Shown: piece after piece, positions 1-37,830 of the stretch
Layout of the letters: each line of letters opens with the position of its first letter
Numbering within the stretch: position 1 is the first letter of the stretch
Virus record (IMG/VR): IMGVR_UViG_3300028027_003646
Location: 1 to 37,830 of that record
DNA: 37,830 bases
Strand: one strand, 5' to 3'
Origin: a virus
The notes under the pieces: model-generated
Databases searched by the model: none
The model's input: the letters and a program-made list of their open reading frames with translations, nothing else
What the model was told of the DNA's origin: nothing
Position numbers and translations under genes: made by a program

Positions 1-1146
1 TTAATTATGTTTTTCATCTGTTTTTCTTGGCAGTTTCATCACTACTTCGCTTACAGGGGTCTCTCTTAGCTTGATATAACCTTTCGTCATTTCTTCGCCT
101 GTATGTGCTCCACCGATACTGATTTGCTTCACCGTGTAACCGTCACGCTTTGCATCGGTCATGGCTTTGGCACGTAAGTCTTTAAGAGTTGCATCTGTTA
201 CGCCAGCTCTTTGTGCCGCTCGTCTCCATGCCGAAGCCATTCCACCTGTGGAGTACGGTTTTAAATCATAGGTATGAATAACATAGTCAGATTTTTGACT
301 CCGCTCTGGATAAGCTTTTTTTGCTCGCTCTAAAACATCCTGTACGGCTGGACTCATTGGAACGAGTACTTTGGCTCCGCTGCTTTTCTCTGTCTTAGTT
401 GGGGTAAAGAGGATTCCTTTGTCTGTAATTTGATCCCAGCGCAGTAAGCGGATTTCCGTTGTTCTTTGGTAAAGTAAAAAGCAAAGGTCTACATAGCATT
501 GCACCATCTTGCCATTGCGGGTTTCTAAGCCATCTTGGCCAAGTAATAATGCATCTTTGATGGTATTAAATTCATCATCGGTAATGTAGCGTGATCTTTT
601 TTTGGGTTTTGCTACTGTAATTTCTCTACATGGATTATCAGCACGATAGCCTTTTCTGCATGTCCATTTAAAAAAGTCAGAAAGCCTTGATTGATAAATT
701 TGGGCCATTCGTTGCCCCTCCCATTGATCGACGAAAGTTGCGATATCGACGGGAAGTACATCTACTAAATCGAAAGTTTTAAATGCTTGCTCGATCGTAT
801 TGAAAACACTTGTAAAATTCTTGTTCGCTGTTTGATGCATTCGTAATCTTGGCGGGTCTTTAGGGGCCTCTTGCTCTCTTTTTTTGAAAAAAGAAGAAGA
901 GTACTTTTTAAAGTAAGTGATGAAATCACCTTCTTCATCTTGCTGTGTATTGTGCTTAATGACTCGCTGAGCGAGTTCTCTTGCGCTGGCCTCTCCATCT
1001 GCCACAAGGCAAAGGCTATGCCATTGCCTTGCTTTGCCATCGATGGGGCTGATGGTGTAATCAGCGGTAAATAAATAATATCTTTTTCTTTTGATATAAA
1101 TTCGGCTGTTGGTTAAGCCGCGATTAGTTGTGCGATGCCTAGCCAT
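1..1146 (-). CDS. int: Phage integrase, tyrosine recombinase
   Basis: This 381-aa tyrosine recombinase is expected to catalyse attP x attB integration and, with a directionality factor, excision. The N-terminal arm-binding and SAM-like part covers about residues 1-180 and the catalytic domain about 190-365. Visible active-site residues are Arg I R228 in the QRTTE segment, a beta-hairpin Lys near K251, R325 in KDLR (the usual box II His is replaced by K322), H348 in GGAHTG, and the nucleophile Y357 in KGYI. The start overlaps the upstream DUF4224 gene by 8 bases and the stop lies at the window edge, so attL must be further left. Its place at the distal end of the early operon, downstream of the replication gene, differs from P2, where int sits beside the repressor. 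Confidence 0.95.
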   Translation of the reverse strand: MARHRTTNRGLTNSRIYIKRKRYYLFTADYTISPIDGKARQWHSLCLVADGEASARELAQRVIKHNTQQDEEGDFITYFKKYSSSFFKKREQEAPKDPPRLRMHQTANKNFTSVFNTIEQAFKTFDLVDVLPVDIATFVDQWEGQRMAQIYQSRLSDFFKWTCRKGYRADNPCREITVAKPKKRSRYITDDEFNTIKDALLLGQDGLETRNGKMVQCYVDLCFLLYQRTTEIRLLRWDQITDKGILFTPTKTEKSSGAKVLVPMSPAVQDVLERAKKAYPERSQKSDYVIHTYDLKPYSTGGMASAWRRAAQRAGVTDATLKDLRAKAMTDAKRDGYTVKQISIGGAHTGEEMTKGYIKLRETPVSEVVMKLPRKTDEKHN

Positions 1147-12785: not shown

Positions 12786-13961
12786 TTAGCGGCCTACACT
12801 GGCGGCAAAATCCATTAAGTATTTGTCGGTAATGCGCTGGATAAAGGTGAGGTCTTCCAGCGGGGGTATCGGCGTGTAGTCGTAATCAATCGTCAACTTG
12901 CCCGCCTTCAGCGCTTCCTTCTCGTTGGCGTCACTATCTAGCCAGGCATTGAAGCCCATCAAATAACCGCCAGACACTAAGGCGCGGCCCTTGGCATTGA
13001 GGCCCGCCAAAATATCCTTAGCCAGACTCGGCGTCATCGGCTTATCAACCGCCCACATATGCGCCTCGGCCATCGTGTCGGCCAGCACTTGTGCGGTGCG
13101 GGTGTAGCTTTCAAACTTGAATAGTGGGTCGGCGCTAAGGCTGTGGCTTCCCCAAAAAATAAAGCCTTTGGCGCGTACCAGCGTGGTGACGTCGGCGGCG
13201 TTCAGTAAGCCTGCATCGGTATCTGGGTCTTGCAAGTCCCAGAACACGTCTTGGCTTAAGCCGGTGACGCCATTAATCACCACATTAGAAAGGGTTTTGT
13301 GCCAGCCGGTTTCTTTGTCGATTTTGGCGCGTAAGCCCATCGCGTAGGCCACGGCCAGATCTAGGCCTTGATCGCTTTTGCCGTCAAAGTTGGGATTGCT
13401 AAAGTCTGGCCAGATCAGCATCAGCTCGCGCTGGCCAAAGTTTTTGCGATACTCAAGGGCGGCTTCTAAGCTATTGCAGCCTCGGGCGCTGATATAGGCG
13501 AAGGCGCGTAGCTTCTGGCAGATGGTGGCCAGCTCGTTGGCCACCAGCAAAGTGTCGTAGCCTGGCACGCCTAAGATGCGCGGCTTAACGTGAACCGTGT
13601 TGTTCGCCGATAGCAACGCTTGCAAGCCGGTAAAGCGGCCCTGTTCATCGGTGCCGCCGATGATGTTTTTTTCGGTTTCTTTTTCGTCTGCGCCTTCTTC
13701 TACCCGCACCATCACAATCATCGGGCTGGTTTGTTTGGATATGGCGCGCAAGGTGCGTAGCAGCGTGCCTTTCGTGCCTGCTTTACCGATGGCTTTTTGT
13801 ACGTTGGTAATCAGCACGGCTTGATTGAGCGGGAAGAACTTTGCGTCTGCATCGGGTGCAGTGCAGACGGCACCAATAACAGCGGTGCTAATGGTTTGAA
13901 TGGTGCGCGTGCCCTCGTTGACTTCGAGAACGCGCACACCATGATGGAATGAATCGCCCAT
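12786..13961 (-). CDS. FI: Tail sheath protein gpFI
   Basis: This 391-aa protein (P2 gpFI 396 aa) forms the contractile sheath. The chosen ATG gives MGDSFHHGVRVLEVNEG, aligning with P2's start, and has GAGGA six bases upstream; an in-frame ATG at 13994 adds an unlikely 11 residues. Family marks include STAVIGAVCTAPDAD near the N-terminus and the C-terminal DYDYTPIPPLEDLTF. It is first in its operon, just downstream of a candidate Ogr box at 14030-14048. Confidence 0.95.
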   Translation of the reverse strand: MGDSFHHGVRVLEVNEGTRTIQTISTAVIGAVCTAPDADAKFFPLNQAVLITNVQKAIGKAGTKGTLLRTLRAISKQTSPMIVMVRVEEGADEKETEKNIIGGTDEQGRFTGLQALLSANNTVHVKPRILGVPGYDTLLVANELATICQKLRAFAYISARGCNSLEAALEYRKNFGQRELMLIWPDFSNPNFDGKSDQGLDLAVAYAMGLRAKIDKETGWHKTLSNVVINGVTGLSQDVFWDLQDPDTDAGLLNAADVTTLVRAKGFIFWGSHSLSADPLFKFESYTRTAQVLADTMAEAHMWAVDKPMTPSLAKDILAGLNAKGRALVSGGYLMGFNAWLDSDANEKEALKAGKLTIDYDYTPIPPLEDLTFIQRITDKYLMDFAASVGR

Positions 13962-26674: not shown

Positions 26675-26716
26675 CCAACAAAATACTTCTGCTTTTGATT
26701 GCCTTAGCCTTTGGCT

Positions 26717-28468
26717 ATGGAAAATATAAACATCAAAGATCCGCGTATTGAGGCTCGCCGCCTGTATTGGGCAGGCTGGCGTGTTTCGCGTATTGCAGAA
26801 TCATTAGGCGAAAAACCCGCCACGGTGCATAGCTGGAAACGGCGCGATGAATGGGACAAAAAGAAGCTGATTGAGCGCGTCGAAGAGTCGCTGGAATCGC
26901 GCTATATCTTTCTTTTGAATAAGGACAAAAAAGAGGGTATCGACTTTAAAGAAATTGATTTGCTTTCACGGCAAATGGAACGCATCGCAAGGATTAATAA
27001 ATACACCGGCGGCGGCAATGAAGCCGACCTAAACCCCAATATTGCCAGCCGCAACAAGGCAGAGCGCAAGAAGGCCACCAAGAACGATTTTAATGATGAG
27101 CACGTCGATCTCATCAAAGACGCCTTTATGGATTCTTTGTTTGCCTATCAGCATGGCTGGTTTGAGGCAGGCAAGAAACACAGCTTCCGCAATGTTTTAA
27201 AGTCTCGCCAAATTGGCGCAACCTGGTACTTCGCCCGCGAGGCGCTGTTCGATGCGATGACCACGGGCCGCAATCAAATCTTTTTAAGCGCCAGCAAGGC
27301 GCAGGCGCATGTATTCAAGCAATACATCATCGCCTTTGCCAAAGACGCCGCCGATTTAGAGCTAAAAGGCGATCCTATCGTCTTACCCAACGGCGCAACG
27401 CTGCACTTCCTCGGCACCAATGCCCGCACCGCGCAGAGCTACACCGGCAATCTATACGTGGATGAGTATTTCTGGATTCCACGCTTTCAGGAACTCCAAA
27501 AAGTCGCCTCGGGTATGGCCCTGCATTCGCACTGGCGGCAAACCTACTTTTCGACGCCTTCCAGCCTAAACCACGATGCCTATCCGTTCTGGTCGGGTGA
27601 TGCCTTCAATAAAGGCCGTGCCAAAGCTGATCGTATTCAGCTTGATGTCAAACCGGCCAGCCTGGCAAAAGGCAGCCTCTGTGCTGACGATCAGTGGCGG
27701 CAAGTCGTGACCATTGAAGACGCGATTGAAGGCGGTTGTAATCTGTTTGATCTGGACAAGATCAAAAAACGATATAACCCCAACGATTATCAAAACTTGC
27801 TGATGTGTGAGTTTATCGATGATAGCGCCAGCATCTTTCCCTTATCTGAATTGCAAAAGTGCATGGTTGATAGCTGGGAGAAGTGGGAGGACTTCAAAGC
27901 CATTGCCCCGCGCCCCTTTGGCTACTGGCCTGTATGGATTGGCTACGACCCTGCTTTATCCGGCGATAGCGCGGGCTTGATCGTATTGGCCCCGCCGTTG
28001 GTGCCTGGCGGTAAATTCCGCGTGTTGGAGAAACGCCAATGGAAAGGCATGGATTTTGCCGCGCAGGCGCAAGGGATTAAGGATATCTGCAGCCAATACA
28101 ACGTGGCGTATATCGGCATTGATACCACCGGCATTGGGCAGGGCGTTTATCAACTGGTTAAACAGTTCTACCCAGCGGCTAAGGCCATCAATTACAGCGT
28201 AGATATGAAAGCGCGCTTAGTCATGAAGGCGCAAGACGTGATCCGCAATGGCCGCTTGGAGTTTGACGCGGGCTGGACGGATCTTGCCGCCGCCTTTATG
28301 GCCATTCAAAAAACCATGACCGCCAGCGGGCGGCATGTGACTTACTCGGCTAGCCGCTCCGAAGAACTCAGCCACGCCGACTTAGCCTGGGCATGTATGC
28401 ACGCCTTACTCAATGAGCCGTTAGAAGGCTCTAATTCGACTAATTCCGGCTTTATGGAAATTTGCTAA
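26717..28468 (+). CDS. P: Terminase large subunit gpP
   Basis: This 583-aa packaging motor (P2 gpP 590 aa) has an N-terminal HTH DNA-binding segment at about 10-45 (WRVSRIAESLGEKPATVHSW). The ATPase part has the variant Walker A SRQIGATW at 163-170 and Walker B YVDEYFW near 247-253. The C-terminal nuclease-like part has acidic residues in GYDPALSGDSAG and GIDTTG. The ATG at 26717 is chosen; a TTG at 26711 would add two residues. P and Q are the only rightward late genes, as in P2. Confidence 0.95.
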   Translation: MENINIKDPRIEARRLYWAGWRVSRIAESLGEKPATVHSWKRRDEWDKKKLIERVEESLESRYIFLLNKDKKEGIDFKEIDLLSRQMERIARINKYTGGGNEADLNPNIASRNKAERKKATKNDFNDEHVDLIKDAFMDSLFAYQHGWFEAGKKHSFRNVLKSRQIGATWYFAREALFDAMTTGRNQIFLSASKAQAHVFKQYIIAFAKDAADLELKGDPIVLPNGATLHFLGTNARTAQSYTGNLYVDEYFWIPRFQELQKVASGMALHSHWRQTYFSTPSSLNHDAYPFWSGDAFNKGRAKADRIQLDVKPASLAKGSLCADDQWRQVVTIEDAIEGGCNLFDLDKIKKRYNPNDYQNLLMCEFIDDSASIFPLSELQKCMVDSWEKWEDFKAIAPRPFGYWPVWIGYDPALSGDSAGLIVLAPPLVPGGKFRVLEKRQWKGMDFAAQAQGIKDICSQYNVAYIGIDTTGIGQGVYQLVKQFYPAAKAINYSVDMKARLVMKAQDVIRNGRLEFDAGWTDLAAAFMAIQKTMTASGRHVTYSASRSEELSHADLAWACMHALLNEPLEGSNSTNSGFMEIC

Positions 28469-29497
28469 ATGAAAAAAAAACCGTACTTACCTAAATCAAC
28501 CATGCTGGCCAGCACGCCCAATCCATCGGCCAGCGGCTCGGTGGCCTTCACCTTTGGCGAGCCTTCCGCCGTGCTCGATCGCCGTGAATTACTGGATTTA
28601 CTCGAGTGCAACAACAACGGCAAATGGTACGAGCCGCCGATGTCATTTGATGGGCTGGCTAAAACCTACCGCGCCACCGTTCACCATTCCAGCCCCATTC
28701 AGGTTAAGCGCAACATCCTACTTAAAACCTTTATCCCGCACCCGCTATTAAGCCGCACTGAATTTGCTAAGTTTGCGCTGGATTACCTGATCTTTGGGAA
28801 TGCCTATTTAGAGAAGAACCTAGGCCGCACCGGCAAGGTGCTGAAGCTTACCCACGCGCTGGCCAAGTACATACGCGTCGGGCTAAAAGAGGGCGGTTTT
28901 TATCAAGTACTGAATCATGCCAAAGAGTATGAGTTTCAGCAGGGCACGGTGTTTCACCTGCTCGAGCCTGATATCAATCAAGAGATTTACGGCTTGCCTG
29001 AATACCTATCGGCGCTTAATTCAACCTGGCTGAATGAATCCGCCACGCTGTTTCGCCGCCGCTATTTTGAAAACGGCAGCCATGCCGGTTTTATTCTGTA
29101 CATGACCGACGCCGCCCAAAACGAAAGCTATATCGACGACCTGCGCGAAGCCCTGCAAAAAAGCAAAGGCCCAGGGAATTTTAAAAACTTAATGGTGTAC
29201 GCGCCTGGCGGCAAGAAAGACGGCATGCAGATTTTGCCTATCTCAGAAGTAGCGGCAAAGGATGATTTCTGGAACATCAAAAACGTAACCCGTGACGATC
29301 AGCTGAGCGCCCACCGTGTACCCGCGCAACTGATGGGCATCATCCCCAACAACACCGGCGGCTTAGGTGATGTAGAGAAAGCCGCCACCGTGTTTGCTTA
29401 TAACGAGATTGAGCCCTTGCAAGAGCGCATGAAAGAGCTGAATGATTGGCTGGGGGTGGAGGTGATCCGCTTCAAGCCTTATAAATTGGAAAACTAA
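28469..29497 (+). CDS. Q: Portal protein gpQ
   Basis: This 342-aa portal (P2 gpQ 344 aa) is the vertex channel through which gpP packages DNA and to which the tail attaches. It begins immediately after the P stop (TAAATG). Typical segments are TYRATVHHSSPIQVKRNIL, FALDYLIFGNAYLEKNLGR and RVPAQLMGIIPNNTGGLGD. It is followed by a strong terminator. Confidence 0.96.
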   Translation: MKKKPYLPKSTMLASTPNPSASGSVAFTFGEPSAVLDRRELLDLLECNNNGKWYEPPMSFDGLAKTYRATVHHSSPIQVKRNILLKTFIPHPLLSRTEFAKFALDYLIFGNAYLEKNLGRTGKVLKLTHALAKYIRVGLKEGGFYQVLNHAKEYEFQQGTVFHLLEPDINQEIYGLPEYLSALNSTWLNESATLFRRRYFENGSHAGFILYMTDAAQNESYIDDLREALQKSKGPGNFKNLMVYAPGGKKDGMQILPISEVAAKDDFWNIKNVTRDDQLSAHRVPAQLMGIIPNNTGGLGDVEKAATVFAYNEIEPLQERMKELNDWLGVEVIRFKPYKLEN

Positions 29498-30310: not shown

Positions 30311-30371
30311 ATAATTCCTTGTGTTTATCGCTCAGGCATCAGTTTAGGATGATTTACCCCCAGCGCGCGCC

Positions 30372-30390
30372 CTCGTGACCCCGCCACGCC
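30372..30390 (-). other. cos: Candidate cos (cohesive end) site
   Basis: Read toward Q, the minus strand gives GGCGTGGCGGGGTCACGAG. The P2 cohesive end as I recall it is GGCGAGGCGGGGAAAGCAC: 11 of the first 12 bases agree, and GCGCGCTG follows at nearly the same distance in both. The orientation toward Q is also that of P2. The site is an isolated GC-rich island in AT-rich DNA, about 880 bases from the Q stop. Confidence 0.72.
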
Positions 30391-30524
30391 TGCCCACTTA
30401 ACACACTATTTTTTATGCACCTGCATGATGAAGGCTCAAGCCTTGCCAGATATGGTCCTTAACGGTAAAAAATGTCCCTATAAAAGCTTGCATAATTTGC
30501 TAATTTATCGCCGATTGTTGCAAA

Positions 30525-30747: not shown

Positions 30748-32655
30748 TTATATCAATAGGCTTTTATTTGATTTAGTTAAAGTTTCCCCTATAACATAAT
30801 TGTTGTTGTTTAATTCATGGTATATACTTTTTGTTGCAAAAATTATCTGACAATCTACTGATTTATCTTTTAATATATCATATATTATTTTCTGAAAGTT
30901 TTTTGATCTACTATCTTCCATTCCTCCATTCTCAATGCCATCAAGAATCATAAATCTTGGTATTCTTACGTAGTTTTTATCTAAAGAAGATAAAAATAAC
31001 GAAAAATGAAATGCGTTGTTTAAAAATACCATTCCGCTTTCCGAAAATGTACTTTTTCCATTTACTGATATTGTGTTTGATGCGAAATCGAACTCAATAG
31101 TATTTGCATTTTTAAATTCACCTTCAGCGCCAATGTCAAGTTTTAAAATGTCAATTAAGTGAGATGATATAATTCCAAGTATTTCTGGTTCTCGTGATTT
31201 ATTTGTGTTTGTTTTTAATTCGATAAAACTTTTGTATTTGTTTACTTCACTTTGAATTAAGTCTCTCTCTGTTGTGAGAGTTTTAATTGACTCATATAGT
31301 TCACTTATTTTTTCAAGAGTAGCTATTTTCTCCTCTGTTTCGCCGATTTCATTATAATGTTTATAGAGCTCTGATTCATTTGATGTGTTTAAAGCTGTGA
31401 TTGTTGATGATATTTTAGTTAGAGTTTTCCTCATCTCTACTTGTATTTGTTTGCTTTTTAATTTTTGCTCTTCAAGTTTTTCTTTTTTCTTTGTTAATAA
31501 CCTTTCTGATTCATCTATTTGTATACTAATCTCATTCTTCATTCTAATTAAATTTATACTACCTTCTGTACTTTGTGTTTCTTCTGGATGCCCACACAAA
31601 TGGCAATGATCCGCAAGAGTGCTTTTTTCTAAAGATTTATGGCAATTTGGACAGGTTTTAAATACTATTGGTAATTTATATTTGTCAACTCTTAGTGAAT
31701 CATTTATTGCACAATTTTTGTCGTGAAGTTCTGCAATAAACTCTTCAGAATCGAGTATTTCATATTGAAGACTTTGTATCAAACTCTCACAATCTAAGAG
31801 TTCATTCTTAATTTTTATACTCTCGTTCGCATATTTTTTAGTAATATCTTTTTCTTTTGATTGGGAGATGATGTTATCTTGGCGGATTTTGGTTATTTCC
31901 TCTTTGAGGAATGATATACTTTTAATGTATTTCTCTTTTTCTTCTTCTAATGTGGTTAAATTATTTACAAATGACGTTTGGCCTATGACAGAGAAAATTG
32001 CACTTAATTTATGAACAACTTTATCTAGTTTTTTTTCTTCAGCGGCAAGTTTAATTTTTGCGTCGTATAGCTCATTATCATGAATTCCAAGAAGGTATTT
32101 TCCAATTGACTCTCTTTTGAATGCAGAATCAAATTGTTCTGAGTTGAAAAAACTGCTAGATGTGTTGGATTGGTCACTATAGATAAGTCTTAAAATTTGA
32201 TGTATTGTAATGTTGTTATTTTGTAAGTCTGCTTTTGCTTCTGGTATTTCTAAAATAGAAAATAATTTTTGGGAGAAGCTTTCTCTCGATGCTGTTATTT
32301 GGTAGGGGTAATTACTCCATGTTTCAATAGGAGATAAGACAGCATTGTCTATATGCAGATAGCAAATTTCAAGGGATTGTCTTTCGGTGTTGTTATTTGT
32401 TCTTCGTAAGGTGATTGAATTTCCATTGATTTTTAATCCGACATATATGTTGTTGCAACTTCCTGCTTCACTTTTCCATTTTATTATTTCATACCCAAGG
32501 CCAAACATTAGTAATTGAATTACAGATGTTTTTCCTCCTCCGTTGCAGCCGCTTAAGACGTTGATTCCTGGGTGAAATTTTTGGTCAAATGCGGTTATGT
32601 TGCCCTTTTTAGCAATTAATCTTTGTATTTCAATTGTTGGTTTGTATAGAGTCAT
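30748..32655 (-). CDS. SMC/Rad50-like ATPase of an ABC-3C-type system
   Basis: This is a 635-aa ABC-superfamily ATPase. Walker A GCNGGGKT is at residues 36-43. Long coiled coils (about 195-330 and 365-480) flank a zinc module with CPNC at 335-338 and CHLC at 351-354. An S-x-SG signature-like segment lies near 537-541 and a Walker B FMILDGIENG near 568-577, where Gly-Ile-Glu replaces the usual Glu-Pro. The layout is that of SMC-type ATPases of the ABC-three-component conflict systems. The upstream gene overlaps it by 26 bases. GC content is far lower than in the phage genes, pointing to separate acquisition. Nucleic-acid or phage-product sensing is inference. Confidence 0.85.
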   Translation of the reverse strand: MTLYKPTIEIQRLIAKKGNITAFDQKFHPGINVLSGCNGGGKTSVIQLLMFGLGYEIIKWKSEAGSCNNIYVGLKINGNSITLRRTNNNTERQSLEICYLHIDNAVLSPIETWSNYPYQITASRESFSQKLFSILEIPEAKADLQNNNITIHQILRLIYSDQSNTSSSFFNSEQFDSAFKRESIGKYLLGIHDNELYDAKIKLAAEEKKLDKVVHKLSAIFSVIGQTSFVNNLTTLEEEKEKYIKSISFLKEEITKIRQDNIISQSKEKDITKKYANESIKIKNELLDCESLIQSLQYEILDSEEFIAELHDKNCAINDSLRVDKYKLPIVFKTCPNCHKSLEKSTLADHCHLCGHPEETQSTEGSINLIRMKNEISIQIDESERLLTKKKEKLEEQKLKSKQIQVEMRKTLTKISSTITALNTSNESELYKHYNEIGETEEKIATLEKISELYESIKTLTTERDLIQSEVNKYKSFIELKTNTNKSREPEILGIISSHLIDILKLDIGAEGEFKNANTIEFDFASNTISVNGKSTFSESGMVFLNNAFHFSLFLSSLDKNYVRIPRFMILDGIENGGMEDSRSKNFQKIIYDILKDKSVDCQIIFATKSIYHELNNNNYVIGETLTKSNKSLLI

Positions 32656-33145
32656 ATTTGTGCTCGATTAATTTGCTTGCTTGCTTTAAGCCATTTCTTC
32701 CAACTAAATCTAATTTGAAAAGATGGTCGAATATGAATGAAATTGCCTTTCTAGATATGCTATTAAGTGGGTCTTTAGCAATATCACTAAGAAATGCTGG
32801 GATTAACTCTATGTTGATTTTATATCGGCCACCGCTGCTTGTTTTTGTTATTGATCCTATTTCAATTAGATATATAAATACAGCGTTTTGTATCGATTTC
32901 ATAGATTCAAATAAGTTTTTTGGATCGTATGATTGATACCTATTTGCATAGTCTTTGAAGGAGTTTTTTTGTTTTATTATGTCCCTGCTTAGTGACATTT
33001 GAGTAATGTGAATTGGATTCGCCACAATAAAGTCAAATATTCTGAGTCGATCTTCCTCAATTTCATTGGATCCGCACTCTAATAATATTGCAATAACTCT
33101 TAATAGAGTATGGTTTTTATCAAGGGCCTTATTGTATAGCAACAT
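32630..33145 (-). CDS. ABC-3C middle component
   Basis: This 171-aa protein starts MLLYNKALDKNHTLLRVIAI, followed by an acidic stretch and DRLRIFDFIVANPIHI. The pattern of a LYN start, a buried helix, then RLRI-DF is that of ABC-3C middle components, closest in my memory to the MC5 type. These are thought to bridge the ATPase and the C-terminal component. The ATG at 33145 shares bases with the upstream stop (TAATG), so translation is coupled; an ATG at 33166 adds seven residues. It lies directly before, and overlaps, the ATPase gene. Confidence 0.78.
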   Translation of the reverse strand: MLLYNKALDKNHTLLRVIAILLECGSNEIEEDRLRIFDFIVANPIHITQMSLSRDIIKQKNSFKDYANRYQSYDPKNLFESMKSIQNAVFIYLIEIGSITKTSSGGRYKINIELIPAFLSDIAKDPLNSISRKAISFIFDHLFKLDLVGRNGLKQASKLIEHKYDSIQTNN

Positions 33146-33690
33146 TATTTCCACTCCAGATGACAATTTCCTGTAAGAAAATACACCATGCCACTAATTT
33201 GGCGGTTGTAAATTTCAAGAACATTCTCTCCCAGTTTGTCTTGAATTACAGAAAACAACATATCATTAATTAATAGTTGTAAGTGATCTTCATTTTGGCA
33301 CTGGTAAAGGTGTGGTTTTATTTTTGATTTAAAAGTAGACTCAATATCGGATAAAATAAATGTAATTATTTTTTGAGCTGATTTGTAGTGTTGATTTTTT
33401 ACAATGAATTTAGAAATATTCTCTTTTAACTCTTCAGCTTCATCAACCATATAGCTAAAGCCAGCCTCATTGAGCTTCACTTTAAGAGTGCGGATGTCTG
33501 ATTTCGCATTGCTATAATGATTTAACTCATCTATTATTTTTGATGTTGTTTCTTTGTTGCTTAATTCTGTTTTAAATAAATTTGATAAGCAGTCTAGTTG
33601 AGATAATCTTGGTGTGTAGTTTATAATCTTATCTCTGCCTATAACATCAGAGCCTGCTTTTACACCAATCATACTGACAGATGTATTCAT
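33145..33690 (-). CDS. ABC-3C C-terminal-domain protein with GRDK motif
   Basis: This 181-aa protein has an N-terminal motif AGSDVIGRDK (residues 12-21), a helical middle (25-120) and a C-terminal section (130-181) ending MVYFLTGNCHLEWK. That ending resembles what I recall of the C-terminal domains (CTDs) of ABC-three-component systems. These usually carry the CTD behind a variable effector; here no recognised effector domain is present, only the short Gly/Asp motif and helices. The motif is repeated in the membrane protein encoded just upstream (AGGDVVGRDK), whose stop overlaps this start as ATGA. Identity as a CTD is good inference; the function is unknown. Confidence 0.72.
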   Translation of the reverse strand: MNTSVSMIGVKAGSDVIGRDKIINYTPRLSQLDCLSNLFKTELSNKETTSKIIDELNHYSNAKSDIRTLKVKLNEAGFSYMVDEAEELKENISKFIVKNQHYKSAQKIITFILSDIESTFKSKIKPHLYQCQNEDHLQLLINDMLFSVIQDKLGENVLEIYNRQISGMVYFLTGNCHLEWK

Positions 33691-34070: not shown

Positions 34071-34183
34071 AAAAAGCAATGGGGTCAGGCTTTACATTTT
34101 GCATCAGATAAAATTTATAGTAGTTTGCAAAGCAAGTTAAATTGATTGCTCATGTCAAATGTAAGACCTGACCCGATAGGTTT
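34071..34183. repeat. Foldback repeat copy B
   Basis: A full-length copy: AAAAAGCAATGGGGTCAGG at the left, AGATAAAATTTATAG in the centre, and ATGTCAAATGTAAGACC then TGACCC and GATAGG at the right. The termini are near-complementary. It lies between the ABC operon and the HEPN-like gene. Confidence 0.85.
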
Positions 34184-34208: not shown

Positions 34209-34250
34209 GCCTAACCGTTGATATATTGAGGCTGAAAGACTCAGCCTTTT
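34209..34250 (-). other. Possible integron cassette boundary and hairpin
   Basis: On the minus strand, downstream of the HEPN-like gene, a perfect stem (AGGCTGA/TCAGCCT, 34229-34247) is followed by ACGGTTAGGC, whose GTTAGGC (34209-34215) fits the GTTRRRY core of an attC right end. The expected matching left core (near TTCCAAC at about 34285) agrees poorly, so this is only a weak attC candidate. Confidence 0.3.
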
Positions 34251-34293: not shown

Positions 34294-34812
34294 TTAGTTT
34301 AATGGCGAAACGTTCGAGGGATTTAAGTGGTCCCACTGACGGTCTGCATTAGCCTTTAACTGCGCAACCGAAAGACCGTACTTTTTTAAATACAGGTCAA
34401 GAATTTTGTTGGCAGCGATATCAGCGAGCTTGACCTTGTGTTTAGCATCAACTAGTGCAGTGCAGGCCAATAGGCGTCCCTTTGGAGTCTGAAGGTCTAT
34501 GATGCACTTATGCAAAAACTCATGGACTACCCAATTTCGGTAGTTCCAACCATCTACGAAGTTGGCATTTAATTCTTCTGATAGGACTAGTTGTTTCCTT
34601 AGCCTTTGTAGTAATTGACCAAGTGTTTTTTGCGAAAAAGACTCAGCTGCATCACTGTAAGCTCCTTCTGCTGCGTTCGCTTCTTCGTGAGAGATAGTAG
34701 ACAGCAGCATTACGAGAGTGCCCTCAAATGCTTGACATATAAAAAGTGCCTTGCCGAGTTCAAGTAGTACTGGTTCTAACTCTGCGATGACGTTTAATTG
34801 GCTAGGTAGCAT
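34294..34812 (-). CDS. HEPN-like protein with RNxxxH motif
   Basis: This 172-aa, mostly helical protein has at residues 92-97 the motif RNWVVH, which fits the R-x4-H (RNxxxH) signature of HEPN-fold proteins, many of which are RNases in toxin or abortive-infection systems. The preceding helix (NANFVDGWNY) and following helix agree with a HEPN layout. I do not recognise a named family. It stands alone downstream of a small membrane-protein gene, between repeat copies, in a region with cassette features. Some HEPN-like proteins are catalytically inactive, so RNase activity is inference. Confidence 0.6.
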   Translation of the reverse strand: MLPSQLNVIAELEPVLLELGKALFICQAFEGTLVMLLSTISHEEANAAEGAYSDAAESFSQKTLGQLLQRLRKQLVLSEELNANFVDGWNYRNWVVHEFLHKCIIDLQTPKGRLLACTALVDAKHKVKLADIAANKILDLYLKKYGLSVAQLKANADRQWDHLNPSNVSPLN

Positions 34813-34839
34813 GACATGTATACGCTCTAACGTTGGAAA

Positions 34840-35250
34840 TCAGCGGCCTAGTTTTGTGGGGTTGTTGGATTGATTTGTTAAATATTCCTGTGTTTCGTTG
34901 TTGACGCTGTTTTTGCCTTGCATGTAAATGGTGTTGGCTAGCGTTACTATTAGGATAAAAAGAGTAAAAATAGATGGCCAAAATATTTGATAGTGGCGCT
35001 TTTTTATACGCTTTTCTTCAATTAATCTACATACATTAGAGTAGGCGTTGTTAAAAGTATTTAATACTGCACTATTATCCGTTGGCATATATCCGCCTTC
35101 ACCATTTTCAGCTTTCGGAAAGTGTTGCGACAAAACTTTAAGGAAATCTCTGAGTTCCCTTTCAGAGGCATTAATCAAATCTGGAGAAAAGGCGTAGCAG
35201 ATAACATCGCTTTGTTGCACCACAGTGTTTTCATAGGAATACTTTTTCAT
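34840..35250 (-). CDS. Single-pass membrane protein, 136 aa, unknown
   Basis: This protein has a cytoplasmic-looking N-terminal part (1-80) with several acidic and aromatic residues, a Lys/Arg-rich border (IEEKRIKKRH), then one transmembrane helix at about 88-110 and a short polar tail. No family is recognised. GAGG lies 6-7 bases before the ATG and a perfect palindrome (35282-35298) sits 30-50 bases upstream. It ends 28 bases before the HEPN-like gene, so the two may be co-transcribed and form a two-gene defence unit; this is speculation from layout. Confidence 0.65.
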   Translation of the reverse strand: MKKYSYENTVVQQSDVICYAFSPDLINASERELRDFLKVLSQHFPKAENGEGGYMPTDNSAVLNTFNNAYSNVCRLIEEKRIKKRHYQIFWPSIFTLFILIVTLANTIYMQGKNSVNNETQEYLTNQSNNPTKLGR

Positions 35251-35319: not shown

Positions 35320-35577
35320 CTAGCCATTTGCATTATTTCTTGCTCGTACAATACCGCGCAATACTTTTTCATTTATTTGGATACGGGTGTTCTTCTGAGC
35401 CGCAGTTAATTGCCTTTTTCGCCATGTGTTAATATAGAACGTACGCTCCCAATTATTTATCCATCCTTTTTGATACGCATGGTTAATTGTCTCTATATTT
35501 ATGGCTTTTTCTTCGTCATCTTGTATTCGTTTAACTGCCTGAAAAATTAAATCAGAAGGAAGATTTGTGAAAAGCAT
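35320..35577 (-). CDS. Small unknown protein starting inside a repeat
   Basis: This 85-aa frame, helical and rich in charged residues, contains NHAYQKGWINNWERTFYINTW and RKRQLTAAQKNTRIQINEKVL. The second segment resembles the end of several hypothetical bacterial proteins with a RKR-LS-KQ-IN-KV pattern. The only ATG lies within the left end of repeat copy C, and no Shine-Dalgarno is visible. The native start was therefore probably replaced or cut off by the repeat, leaving either a truncated gene or one expressed through the repeat. Confidence 0.5.
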   Translation of the reverse strand: MLFTNLPSDLIFQAVKRIQDDEEKAINIETINHAYQKGWINNWERTFYINTWRKRQLTAAQKNTRIQINEKVLRGIVRARNNANG

Positions 35578-35659
35578 GGGGTCAGGTCTTACATTTTACA
35601 TGAGATAAAATGTACAGTGATTTGCAAAGCTGATTAAATTGATTACTTAATGTCAAATG
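35570..35659. repeat. Foldback repeat copy C (right end missing)
   Basis: Begins AAAAGCATGGGGTCAGG and runs through AGATAAAATGTACAG to TGTCAAATG, where the last 20-25 bases (TAAGACCTGACCC and flank) are lost and copy D begins at once. It supplies the start codon of the 85-aa gene on the minus strand. Confidence 0.8.
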
Positions 35660-35774
35660 AAAAAAGCAATGGGGTCAGGTCTTAAATTTTGCATTAGATA
35701 AAATTTACAGTGGATTGCAAAGCAAGTTAAATTGATTGCTCATGCCAAATGTAAGAGCTGACCCTATAGGTTTT
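35660..35774. repeat. Foldback repeat copy D, joined to C
   Basis: A full-length copy with AAAAAAGCAATGGGGTCAGG, AGATAAAATTTACAG, CATGCCAAATGTAAGAGC and TGACCCTATAGG. The right end lies where an attC site on the minus strand should continue into its GTTRRRY core, so this copy seems to have interrupted the attC. Confidence 0.85.
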
Positions 35775-35779
35775 CTCGT

Positions 35780-35826
35780 GAGTTCAGCGGCTGCCGAAGG
35801 CAGTCCGCTGGAATGAATTGTTAGCC
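35780..35826 (-). other. attC: Integron attC site, interrupted at one end
   Basis: Minus strand: GGCTAACAATTCATTCC, then AGCGG-A-CTGCC, loop TTC, GGCAGCCGCT, then GAACTC. The long stem with one extrahelical A and the TAACAATTCATTC start match the aadA-type attC pattern very well. The expected right core (GTTRRRY) is absent; repeat D begins about five bases later. This marks the downstream gene end of the 44-aa cassette. Confidence 0.72.
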
Positions 35827-35856
35827 ACTCATATTTGTAAAACAAAAGCAAACGAT

Positions 35857-35991
35857 TTATTTACTCTGTTTGGGCTTAGAAGGCTTGAGAGCAGGTGTAT
35901 TACCAGGGGTATCTTTGTTGTCTCGTCGACGTTGATCAAGCTTACCTGTCGATGGGGCAATCGGTTTTGGTCCAGGCTTAATAATTGTCAT
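35857..35991 (-). CDS. Gene-cassette micro-protein, 44 aa, Lys/Pro-rich
   Basis: The product begins MTIIKPGPKPIAPSTGK and ends KPSKPKQSK; it is basic, Pro-rich and probably unstructured. AAGGAG lies 7 bases before the ATG, the strongest ribosome-binding site in this region. The gene sits between a cassette-start GTTAGGC (36044-36050) and an attC beginning 31 bases after its stop, which is the exact build of an integron gene cassette. I do not recognise the protein. Confidence 0.65.
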   Translation of the reverse strand: MTIIKPGPKPIAPSTGKLDQRRRDNKDTPGNTPALKPSKPKQSK

Positions 35992-36466
35992 AACCACTCT
36001 CCTTGAATTTACGGTACTTGCCATGGGAGCTACGTACTGTGCTGCCTAACAAGATACAGACACCCTAAAACGGCAGAAAAACCACCTCCTTGGGGGTATA
36101 AAAACACGGCACGCCCTTGAAAACCCTTGCGGGGGCGATCTTAAGTGTTTTATGCCAGTATACTACACCCGATTGAGAGGGGATTCCCACCTTTGTTTTT
36201 CTTTTTAGTCAAATTGGCGATTGATTTATTAGGGTTTAGTGTAAGTTTTTGTTTGAATTTGATATGAGAATAGATGTCTTAACTATTTTTTTAATTATTT
36301 CTTCTGCGGGATTTTTGCGGGGCAGGGTGATTATCTGCTGTAACTTGTAGTGGCCCTCTGTAATGCGCCTTAATGCTAAGTTATTGATTTTATGTGTTGT
36401 ATTTAAACCCCTCACGCATGGGGTGCAAGACTGGATATGTACACTGGTATTTCGTAGTTTCCTTGC
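35992..36466. other. 475-base non-coding region, cassette boundary
   Basis: I find no convincing gene. GCCTAAC at 36044-36050 (GTTAGGC on the minus strand) probably marks the recombination point before the 44-aa cassette, so the sequence to its right may be an attI-like or earlier cassette end. No integron integrase is present up to 36466. CCCC-TCACGCAT-GGGG at about 36410-36423 is a small hairpin. A TATACT element on the minus strand near 36160 could be the -10 for the cassette gene. Confidence 0.45.
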
Positions 36467-36742
36467 TTACTTTGATGTTGGTAATTTTGTGAAGTGTTCA
36501 CTTTCAGTTACCCACCCTGACCCAGACTCACAGTTTAACTTGGTGTACGCGTCTACTTTTCCGTAGGCTGTCTCCCCTGCTTCGCATTTTTCACCTTTTT
36601 TTATGGTAAATGCTGCTTTACCTTGTGCCGCGTTCACGTTTGCGTATGCAAAAACGTTCTTGTTTGCTTGCCATATTTCTTTAGGTGCTTTTTCACATCC
36701 AAATAGAACAAGGCATAAGCTAGTAAGTATTAAGGTTTTCAT
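36467..36742 (-). CDS. Lipoprotein, probable T6SS immunity protein
   Basis: This 91-aa protein has a signal peptide and lipobox LFGC, so C16 is lipidated and the protein is anchored in the periplasm. The mature part is small, with two further cysteines (in EKCEAGE and LNCESGS) and SH3-like character (GSGWVTESEHF). Its start overlaps the effector's stop as ATGA. Periplasmic immunity proteins typically follow their T6SS effector in just this way. No family name is assigned; the immunity role is inferred from context. Confidence 0.72.
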   Translation of the reverse strand: MKTLILTSLCLVLFGCEKAPKEIWQANKNVFAYANVNAAQGKAAFTIKKGEKCEAGETAYGKVDAYTKLNCESGSGWVTESEHFTKLPTSK

Positions 36743-37281
36743 TTTTTTGGGTATGTTTCTTTTTTAGTTAATCTTTTAGAGTGACTAAGACCTACCATTA
36801 AATCTGCTGGCGAAACCACGGGTAGCCCATATCTAGGGTCATAGGCTGGAATTCCAGCAAATTCTAGTATTTCAGCAATATTAGACGAGCAACTATTGCT
36901 ATCTAATTTATATGGCTTGTTTTCCGCAGCTCTTTTCTTTATCTCTTTTAGAATATTTTCTTTTTCAGTTTTCGATATTGCTAATGAGTATCCCCATGTG
37001 TCACGGTGCATTTTTACTTGCTGTCGGAATAAATAGCTTTCACGGGTATCAATATCCCATCCACCATGCGCCCGACCGTATACCGTTCCATCTATTGCCA
37101 TCGAGGTATGCCCAAACTGTGATCCACTGGATATTAAACGTGAATCACTAATTAATATTTCTATGCGTTCGCGTGATACAAATATCTTTTTAATTTCTTT
37201 GCTTTCTATGTTTGTAGTGGTTCTATTGGTGACAAGAAACATCTCTTTGCCAGATGGAGATTGTATACTTTGGTTTGGCAT
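36739..37281 (-). CDS. Putative T6SS effector, permuted NlpC/P60-like
   Basis: This is a 180-aa protein. A His in FGHTSMAIDG (H58) precedes a Cys in SNSCSSNIAEIL (C131). The His-before-Cys order, with GH at a strand start and NxC at a helix start, is that of circularly permuted papain-like enzymes (YiiX/LRAT-type NlpC/P60), which include amidases and lipid acyl-hydrolases used as T6SS toxins. No signal peptide is present, as expected for PAAR-delivered cargo. It starts 3 bases after the PAAR gene and is followed by a lipoprotein gene. Whether the target is peptidoglycan or lipid cannot be decided here. Confidence 0.72.
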   Translation of the reverse strand: MPNQSIQSPSGKEMFLVTNRTTTNIESKEIKKIFVSRERIEILISDSRLISSGSQFGHTSMAIDGTVYGRAHGGWDIDTRESYLFRQQVKMHRDTWGYSLAISKTEKENILKEIKKRAAENKPYKLDSNSCSSNIAEILEFAGIPAYDPRYGLPVVSPADLMVGLSHSKRLTKKETYPKK

Positions 37282-37284
37282 CTA

Positions 37285-37830
37285 TTAACCCTCTAAATAG
37301 ATTTTTATATTTTCAGATTTGTTGATGGAATCAAGAAGATGCGTGTTTCCTTCTTCGTCTGTTTCTCCATGCTCAATTTGACCACTCTCTCGTACAATTG
37401 CATAAAGGTGATTAGCAATTGGTTTTTTTGTTTCGCTATCTAATAATTGAAATTTATCATTAAATAGGCTGTCAATTATTTTAGATGTGGCCGCTATAGC
37501 CGCCGCCGCTGCAATCGCCTTTCCTGCTTTGCTAGATGCACCTGATGAGGCCGCACCGCTTCCTTCATACGAGCGCCCGACCTCTGGCATGGATGAGATT
37601 AAAACCGCTCCGCATGAAGTCATATGACCTTCTAATGCAACGGGTTTACCGCCAACGTTCCACGAGGGGTCACCTTCAATAATTGGGCAAACGCCGTGGC
37701 CAGGGATAGGGCAGCTAACTTGATCCCCAAGGAGAGCAACAGGTTTGCCAAACATATTGCTTGTTGATGCAGCACTTATTACAACTCCGCCGTGGCTGGT
37801 TAGGTCGCCTAAGCGTATTACTCTTTTCAT
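37285..37830 (-). CDS. PAAR-domain T6SS tip protein with C-terminal extension
   Basis: In this 181-aa protein, residues 1-82 form a PAAR fold (RLGDLTSHGG, PVALLGDQVSCPIPGHG and a second PVALEGHMTSCG), which caps the VgrG spike. An Ala-rich helix (94-116) leads to a small strand-rich domain (127-181, FQLLDSETKKPIANHLYAIV, ending IKIYLEG), probably a transthyretin-like cargo-binding extension. The ATG is the last codon of the window; the first residues fit a normal PAAR start, but an upstream start cannot be excluded. It heads a PAAR, effector and lipoprotein operon. Confidence 0.88.
   Translation of the reverse strand: MKRVIRLGDLTSHGGVVISAASTSNMFGKPVALLGDQVSCPIPGHGVCPIIEGDPSWNVGGKPVALEGHMTSCGAVLISSMPEVGRSYEGSGAASSGASSKAGKAIAAAAAIAATSKIIDSLFNDKFQLLDSETKKPIANHLYAIVRESGQIEHGETDEEGNTHLLDSINKSENIKIYLEG

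Follow-up and report, generated by a model that had tools for sequence, protein, structure and literature searches.

The stretch of DNA analyzed here (the window, 37,830 nucleotides), one whole IMG/VR record that ends without an attR in view, is a P2-like Iodobacter prophage in which integron cassettes sit behind a copy of attI and no integron integrase was found. We consider it probable, at roughly 0.8, that a phage lineage has fixed an integron platform that has no integrase of its own and is loaded in trans by the integrase of the host. The identity of attI and of the attC sites is firmer than the trans step. This reading is supported by the attI homology, the attCs, the position within the prophage, the failure to find intI, and the different first cassettes joined at the crossover. 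Weighing against this reading are the low score of attC1 and the weak stem of attC2, the two attCs of the window; in addition, the record consists of the window only, so the host and any intI it may have lie outside view. The features of the window are listed in Table 1.

Table 1. Features of the window that bear on the cassette dock and its carrier
Feature	Position	Strand	Evidence
Phage integrase (Phage_integrase family, not IntI)	1..1146	-	PF00589, E 1.4e-12
P2-like terminase and portal genes	26711..29497	+	Pfam and PHROGs
Conserved block after portal gene; other cargo border	30357..30523	+	81-90% identity, all relatives
MITE-like repeat copy	34071..34183	-	Repeat homology
Further GTTAGGC, no recognizable attC	34209..34215	-	No R1 match
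172-aa ORF, after attC2	34294..34812	-	ORF call
attC2, core GTTAGAG, weak stem	34824..34883	-	R1 23.1 bits, E 0.0012, top match in window
136-aa ORF, ahead of attC2	34840..35250	-	ORF call
85-aa ORF, start codon within repeat	35320..35577	-	ORF call
MITE-like repeat copy, 5'-truncated	35570..35662	-	Repeat homology
MITE-like repeat copy D, abutting attC1	35661..35773	-	91% identity to copy at 34071-34183
attC1, right core (R') missing	35772..35826	-	R1 18.2 bits, E 0.016, second-best in window
Cassette 1 gene, 44 aa, ribosome site AAGGAGAG	35857..35991	-	Plasmid small-protein family, 64-81% identity
attI-like site (cassette dock), ending in GTTAGGC 36050-36044	36043..36192	-	Homology
Phage-lineage flank upstream of attI	36193..36450	-	Common to prophages in G008, G009, G010, G017, G019

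The window encodes a terminase, portal, capsid and sheath together with gpD and gpA homologues, as well as the tape measure and tail fiber of a P2-like prophage. The closest relatives of its terminase were in Iodobacter loci L107, L108 (I. violaceini HSC-16F04) and L109 (Iodobacter sp. BJB302), and further close relatives were found in IMG/VR prophages L009-L013. The sole integrase is of the phage type, with no match among the NCBIfam integron integrases, and no intI is linked to the array. The first-pass annotation had seen no integron integrase, and a tblastn search that included a positive control agreed, finding no intI in the window, in G001-G005 or in the first 40 kb of G006; none was found in five prophage regions from named or genus genomes. 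The cargo region extends from a putatively cos-like block behind the portal gene to ~36.05 kb, with the flagged cassette at its far end. Blastn of the flagged region against phage records gave no match, and an Rfam search of the window returned nothing.

The flagged cassette (cassette 1) occupies 36050-35772 on the minus strand and comprises, in order, a GTTAGGC core, a 44-aa gene and an attC hairpin. All the elements named in the first-pass annotation (GTTAGGC, the 44-aa gene, its strong ribosome site and a long-stem attC with one extrahelical base) were recovered on this strand. The attC1 hairpin folds at -12.4 kcal/mol, a value reached by none of 200 shuffles (z = -3.6), and has a single extrahelical A on the minus strand; the sequence 3' of the ORF is CTAACAATTCATTCCAGCGGACTGCCTTCGGCAGCCGCTGAACTCACG. 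A single ORF thus lies between a GTTRRRY-type core and an attC, and of the R'' and R' cores expected of an intact site, R' is absent from attC1. Judged from its sequence, cassette 1 no longer has a working attC.

The 44-aa gene belongs to a family of unannotated small proteins with the pattern M-x-LKPGPKPIAKSTGKPDQRRRDNK-x-TPGNT, found in 1150 of 72,556 plasmid records and in 17 viral contigs. At L253, a relative is flanked by GTTAGAA and an intact attC (29.1 bits), which provides independent support that the gene travels as a cassette; 99% of the L253 cassette has similar DNA on Rhizobium and Agrobacterium plasmids. Since no family member was found in 43 genomes of the host family, cassette 1 did not come from the array of any sampled relative. 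A search of viral contigs for the exact attC1 core found none, and so no intact copy of attC1.

As motif-and-fold scans for attC were too noisy, we built an attC covariance model, R1, from 17 Iodobacter attCs, all from outside the window (L010, L109, L213, L215, L231, L232, L233, L234, L241, and L245), and searched the whole length of the window on both strands with filters off. R1 matched the flagged attC, aligning it as far as ACG and then placing gaps at GUUAGGC. The best match in the window was a second site, attC2, whose free fold was no better than that of shuffles. Elsewhere, R1 gave seven matches in G002/L010, two in L108 and one in L109; those at L010, L109, and the other training loci are partly by construction, because their sites built the model. 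In 1.54 Mb of sequence around P2-like terminases at 76 prophage loci from other genera, R1 found nothing at E<=1. It did, as an unintended positive control, pick up the aac(6')-Ib cassette's attC on an Enterobacter plasmid (L007). A candidate attC at 34310-34209, suggested by the GTTAGGC there, was rejected for want of an R1 match; this GTTAGGC is the probable worn end of the array. The 172-aa protein encoded behind attC2 had no relative in viral contigs or in the 43 genomes of the host family.

With the damaged attC1 and attC2 near each other and no intI, the region has the makeup of a CALIN. The first-pass annotation had left open a lone cassette or part of an integrase-less array; the R1 matches and the arrays in relatives support the latter, and the lone cassette gives way to an array anchored by attI. 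Relatives show an integron array at this position rather than a conserved non-integron locus. That a chance hairpin fell beside a chance GTTAGGC, with no integron involved, is close to inconceivable: R1 alone gives modest E-values in the window, but its two top matches lie on the right strand within the cargo, arrays occupy the same place in relatives, and attI homology adjoins them.

The core of cassette 1 ends a site (36192-36043) whose 150 bp are 79% identical to the intI-adjacent attI of G007:C108, a chromosomal integron in a Lake Pavin genome assigned to Iodobacter. In that integron, 10 bp separate attI from an intI that is intact and divergent (TIGR02249, 486 bits), and attI is followed by GTTAGGC and attC cassettes. 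By this 79% homology, the window would possess the attI of a complete integron, with crossover expected at G^TT. The window's attI aligns with 25 other copies, and conservation is best near the core. In a by-eye alignment to the start of the L215 intI, the first ~30 nt of the upstream flank resemble the 5' end of intI and may be a remnant of it. A block matching the window from 36040-36047 onward recurs in L010, L108, and L109, which have cassette arrays with attCs at the same border and whose cargo otherwise differs from phage to phage. The first-pass annotation had overlooked this attI ending in GTTAGGC at 36050, attC2 at 34883-34824, and the P2-like prophage that carries them.

Because attI is near the right end of the prophage and the window's record has no attR, we considered whether attI and its cassettes are host DNA beside the prophage. 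This seems very unlikely. In the complete genome G017, the 3' end of tRNA-Pro(ggg) forms a 46-bp exact repeat, with copies at 319073 and 361434; repA, gpD, tape measure, portal, the cos-like block, T, Q, an attC array, and attI (358519-358670) all lie between the two copies. The G017 dock is therefore within the prophage. In addition, the flank upstream of attI is common to prophages, and the same phage genes lie on both sides in several genomes. Within this flank, ~230 bp from attI in the window, 36418-36431 (plus strand) reads GCATGGGGTGCAAG, which matches exactly the anticodon-arm end of tRNA-Pro in the G017 attachment repeat and could be the trace of an earlier or alternative attachment end.

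To compare docks, we aligned eight of the phage type pairwise (the window, L217, L224, L225, L231, L242, L243, and L247). The alignments extended up to ~400 bp at 70-85% identity, and similarity ended 2-15 nt past the crossover G (for the six pairs with L224 as query, the end points were read from L224's own coordinates). No two of 26 attI loci shared a first cassette or similarity starting at the junction. Similarity that stops at the crossover, with cassettes that all differ, is as expected from integrase loading at G^TTRRRY. These results bear on passive capture, in which a phage took a chromosomal attI and its cassettes once, followed by loss and decay, with no recombination at the phage attI. 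The broken attC1 and the MITE copies scattered through the array fit such a history, and V. anguillarum phages have captured pieces of host integrons (Qi et al., 2023, PMC9892861). However, a single capture would leave a common first cassette; none exists among the phage docks, and similarity ends at the crossover. We regard passive capture as unlikely.

The main rival is that arrays were swapped by homologous recombination between phage and chromosome through the attI block, with no site-specific integration. Copies of attI are 70-95% alike over 150 bp, leaving a region of ~150-400 bp available for recombination, and two docks resemble copies of other types: the two halves of L243 (89% and 97% identical to L215) are each near the chromosomal intI-type copy, and L217 is close to type A copies (see below). 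Each exchange, however, needs a second recombination point past the array. Moreover, among attI copies without intI, per-column conservation was 0.89-0.96 beside the core versus 0.74-0.79 at the least conserved stretches. A peak next to the core is expected for a site in use, and suggests, as far as alignment can tell, that attI is still used. Swapping of this kind is improbable in our estimation, if slightly less so than passive capture, and loading by a host integrase remains the preferred reading.

We next consider the genus. All nine Iodobacter genomes contain the attI block, with 30 occurrences in total, two of them partial matches only 44-45 bp long. An intact intI lies 10 bp away from four of the copies (G007, G017, G018, and G020). 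When dock families were defined by the sequence upstream of attI, L215, L234, L240, and L245 were of the intI type, and the P2-like prophage type comprised the window, L217 (assigned by flank only), L224, L225, L231, L242, and L243, along with L209, whose attI is truncated. L247 has a phage portal gene and cos-like block beside attI, without the shared flank. Type A docks (L213, L216, L233, L241 twice, L246 and, distantly, L208) lie behind the gene for a 495-aa protein, and type B docks (L210, L220, L232, and L237) behind a TonB-receptor-like gene as judged by sequence; because of these neighbors, both types look chromosomal. The remaining copies are singletons. Type B docks and, L208 aside, type A docks are without intI, occupy conserved places in several Iodobacter genomes, and have attC arrays behind them. 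In G019, which has six attI copies, one prophage contains two of them, separated by ~5 kb and each carrying a separate set of cassettes (L243:7643-7788 and 12805-12950).

A true IntI was found in six of the nine genomes. G009 and G010 contain a second, different IntI plus decayed fragments of the attI-cognate intI at 89-94% identity (L212:6705-7423 and L223:127-678). We found no IntI in G008 (a draft), G016, or G019; given the six attI copies of G019, some platforms may be orphaned. On balance, we favor the view that a temperate phage lineage adopted attI as a cassette dock driven by host integrases, in a genus across which one integron system has spread attI docks, up to six per genome, to several chromosomal places and to phages.

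We propose that the phage lineage keeps, in the part of the prophage that runs from the cos-like block to the right end, ~150 bp copied from the attI of the chromosomal integron of the genus. A compatible host IntI would insert or exchange cassettes at the phage attI, at G^TTRRRY, so that each phage would acquire its own array and could carry it to a new host. Action of host IntI in trans, packaging, and transfer are the steps that we infer. The phage thus probably borrows the host integrase and can carry swappable genes between bacteria.

The right core of attC1 has been replaced by copy D of a repeat, as the first-pass annotation had claimed. Its label of foldback repeat did not hold: copy D (113 bp) belongs to a multicopy element of ~104-113 bp with inverted ends. 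Of six Iodobacter genomes searched for it, five contain 2-20 copies and the sixth contains none. The element is MITE-like in length, non-coding nature, inverted ends, and copy number (at most 20 per genome). Homology to it starts at 35773 (AAACCTAT), a few nucleotides past CTCACG, and the truncated copy (35662-35570) lies head-to-tail behind copy D. ACG is the triplet that precedes TTRRRY in Iodobacter attCs. We considered whether an integrase reaction at G^TT placed the repeat, as its junction adjoins ACG; the bases that follow are AGA, not TT. The lost R' core was not found beyond the repeats on their far side, so a simple insertion alone cannot account for the junction. The simplest reading is an insertion plus a deletion, and the MITE-like repeat likely caused the loss of the R' core.

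Strand exchange in integrons occurs at the R' core. Since exchange needs this core, cassette 1 should be locked in place; it would no longer be excisable via its own attC, while attI would still accept cassettes. Another MITE-like copy lies next to the right half of an attC at L213:6210-6313 (GGCCAGCTGCTTAATTTTGACGTT), so attC1 is not the only attC that the element has interrupted.

Chromosomal integrons are generally described as sedentary, and the route by which their cassettes get off the chromosome is an unsolved problem of the field. If our reading is correct, a phage that carries only a dock and is loaded by each host's integrase would be a direct cassette route between bacteria, and integrase and platform would become separable in integron biology. 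The sedentary chromosomal integron of Iodobacter (G007:C108, G017, G018, and G020) shares the attI family, attC type, and cassette orientation of the phage arrays, but is on the chromosome, with intI 10 bp from attI. P2-like prophages carry variable accessory genes near cos; here, part of that cargo is loaded as integron cassettes, which was not seen in the 76 loci from other genera. We found no paper on Iodobacter integrons in the literature searched, which leaves out most subscription journals.

Qi et al. (2023, PMC9892861) described integrons and CALINs in phages and showed that IntI1 can act on some of the phage attCs. Like those CALINs, the Iodobacter arrays are attC clusters without an integrase in phage genomes; whereas a CALIN is by definition an attC cluster, the Iodobacter array is anchored by an attI homologous to that of the host integron. 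The closest parallel in that work (section 3.3) is Shewanella prophage M16-3, where a CALIN is headed by an attI of its own. Both are integrase-less arrays led by an attI copy and flanked by phage genes. However, M16-3 is one cryptic prophage and contains a complete, intI-bearing integron as well, whereas the search of the Iodobacter prophages turned up no intI, and their dock is at one place, lineage-wide, with different arrays. What is new relative to Qi et al. is a fixed-place, intI-less dock with differing arrays in a phage lineage, and the spread of attI across the genus.

We also noted other genes around the dock and a relative of the 44-aa family. PADLOC matched Lamassu components at 30748-33690 (minus strand): LmuB (E 4e-35), LmuC (4.5e-6), and, weakly, LmuA (6e-4), the last match also carrying Pfam CTD9 of ABC three-component systems. 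These genes are likely defense cargo beside the array. Adjoining the dock on its other side, 36467-37830 (minus strand) encodes a PAAR-motif protein, an Lnb_N-domain protein, and a small lipoprotein-like ORF, with 90% identity to Iodobacter BJB302; the genes look like a phage-carried, PAAR-linked effector and possible immunity pair. Finally, on the Enterobacter asburiae plasmid L007 (2995-3738), a gene of the 44-aa family (family sequence GACAAGTTAAAAC) is fused in frame to aac(6')-Ib (join GACAAGTTAGGC) and annotated AAC(6')-Ib8. Together, these two sequences suggest that the cassette inserted at a secondary GTTA site within the family gene.
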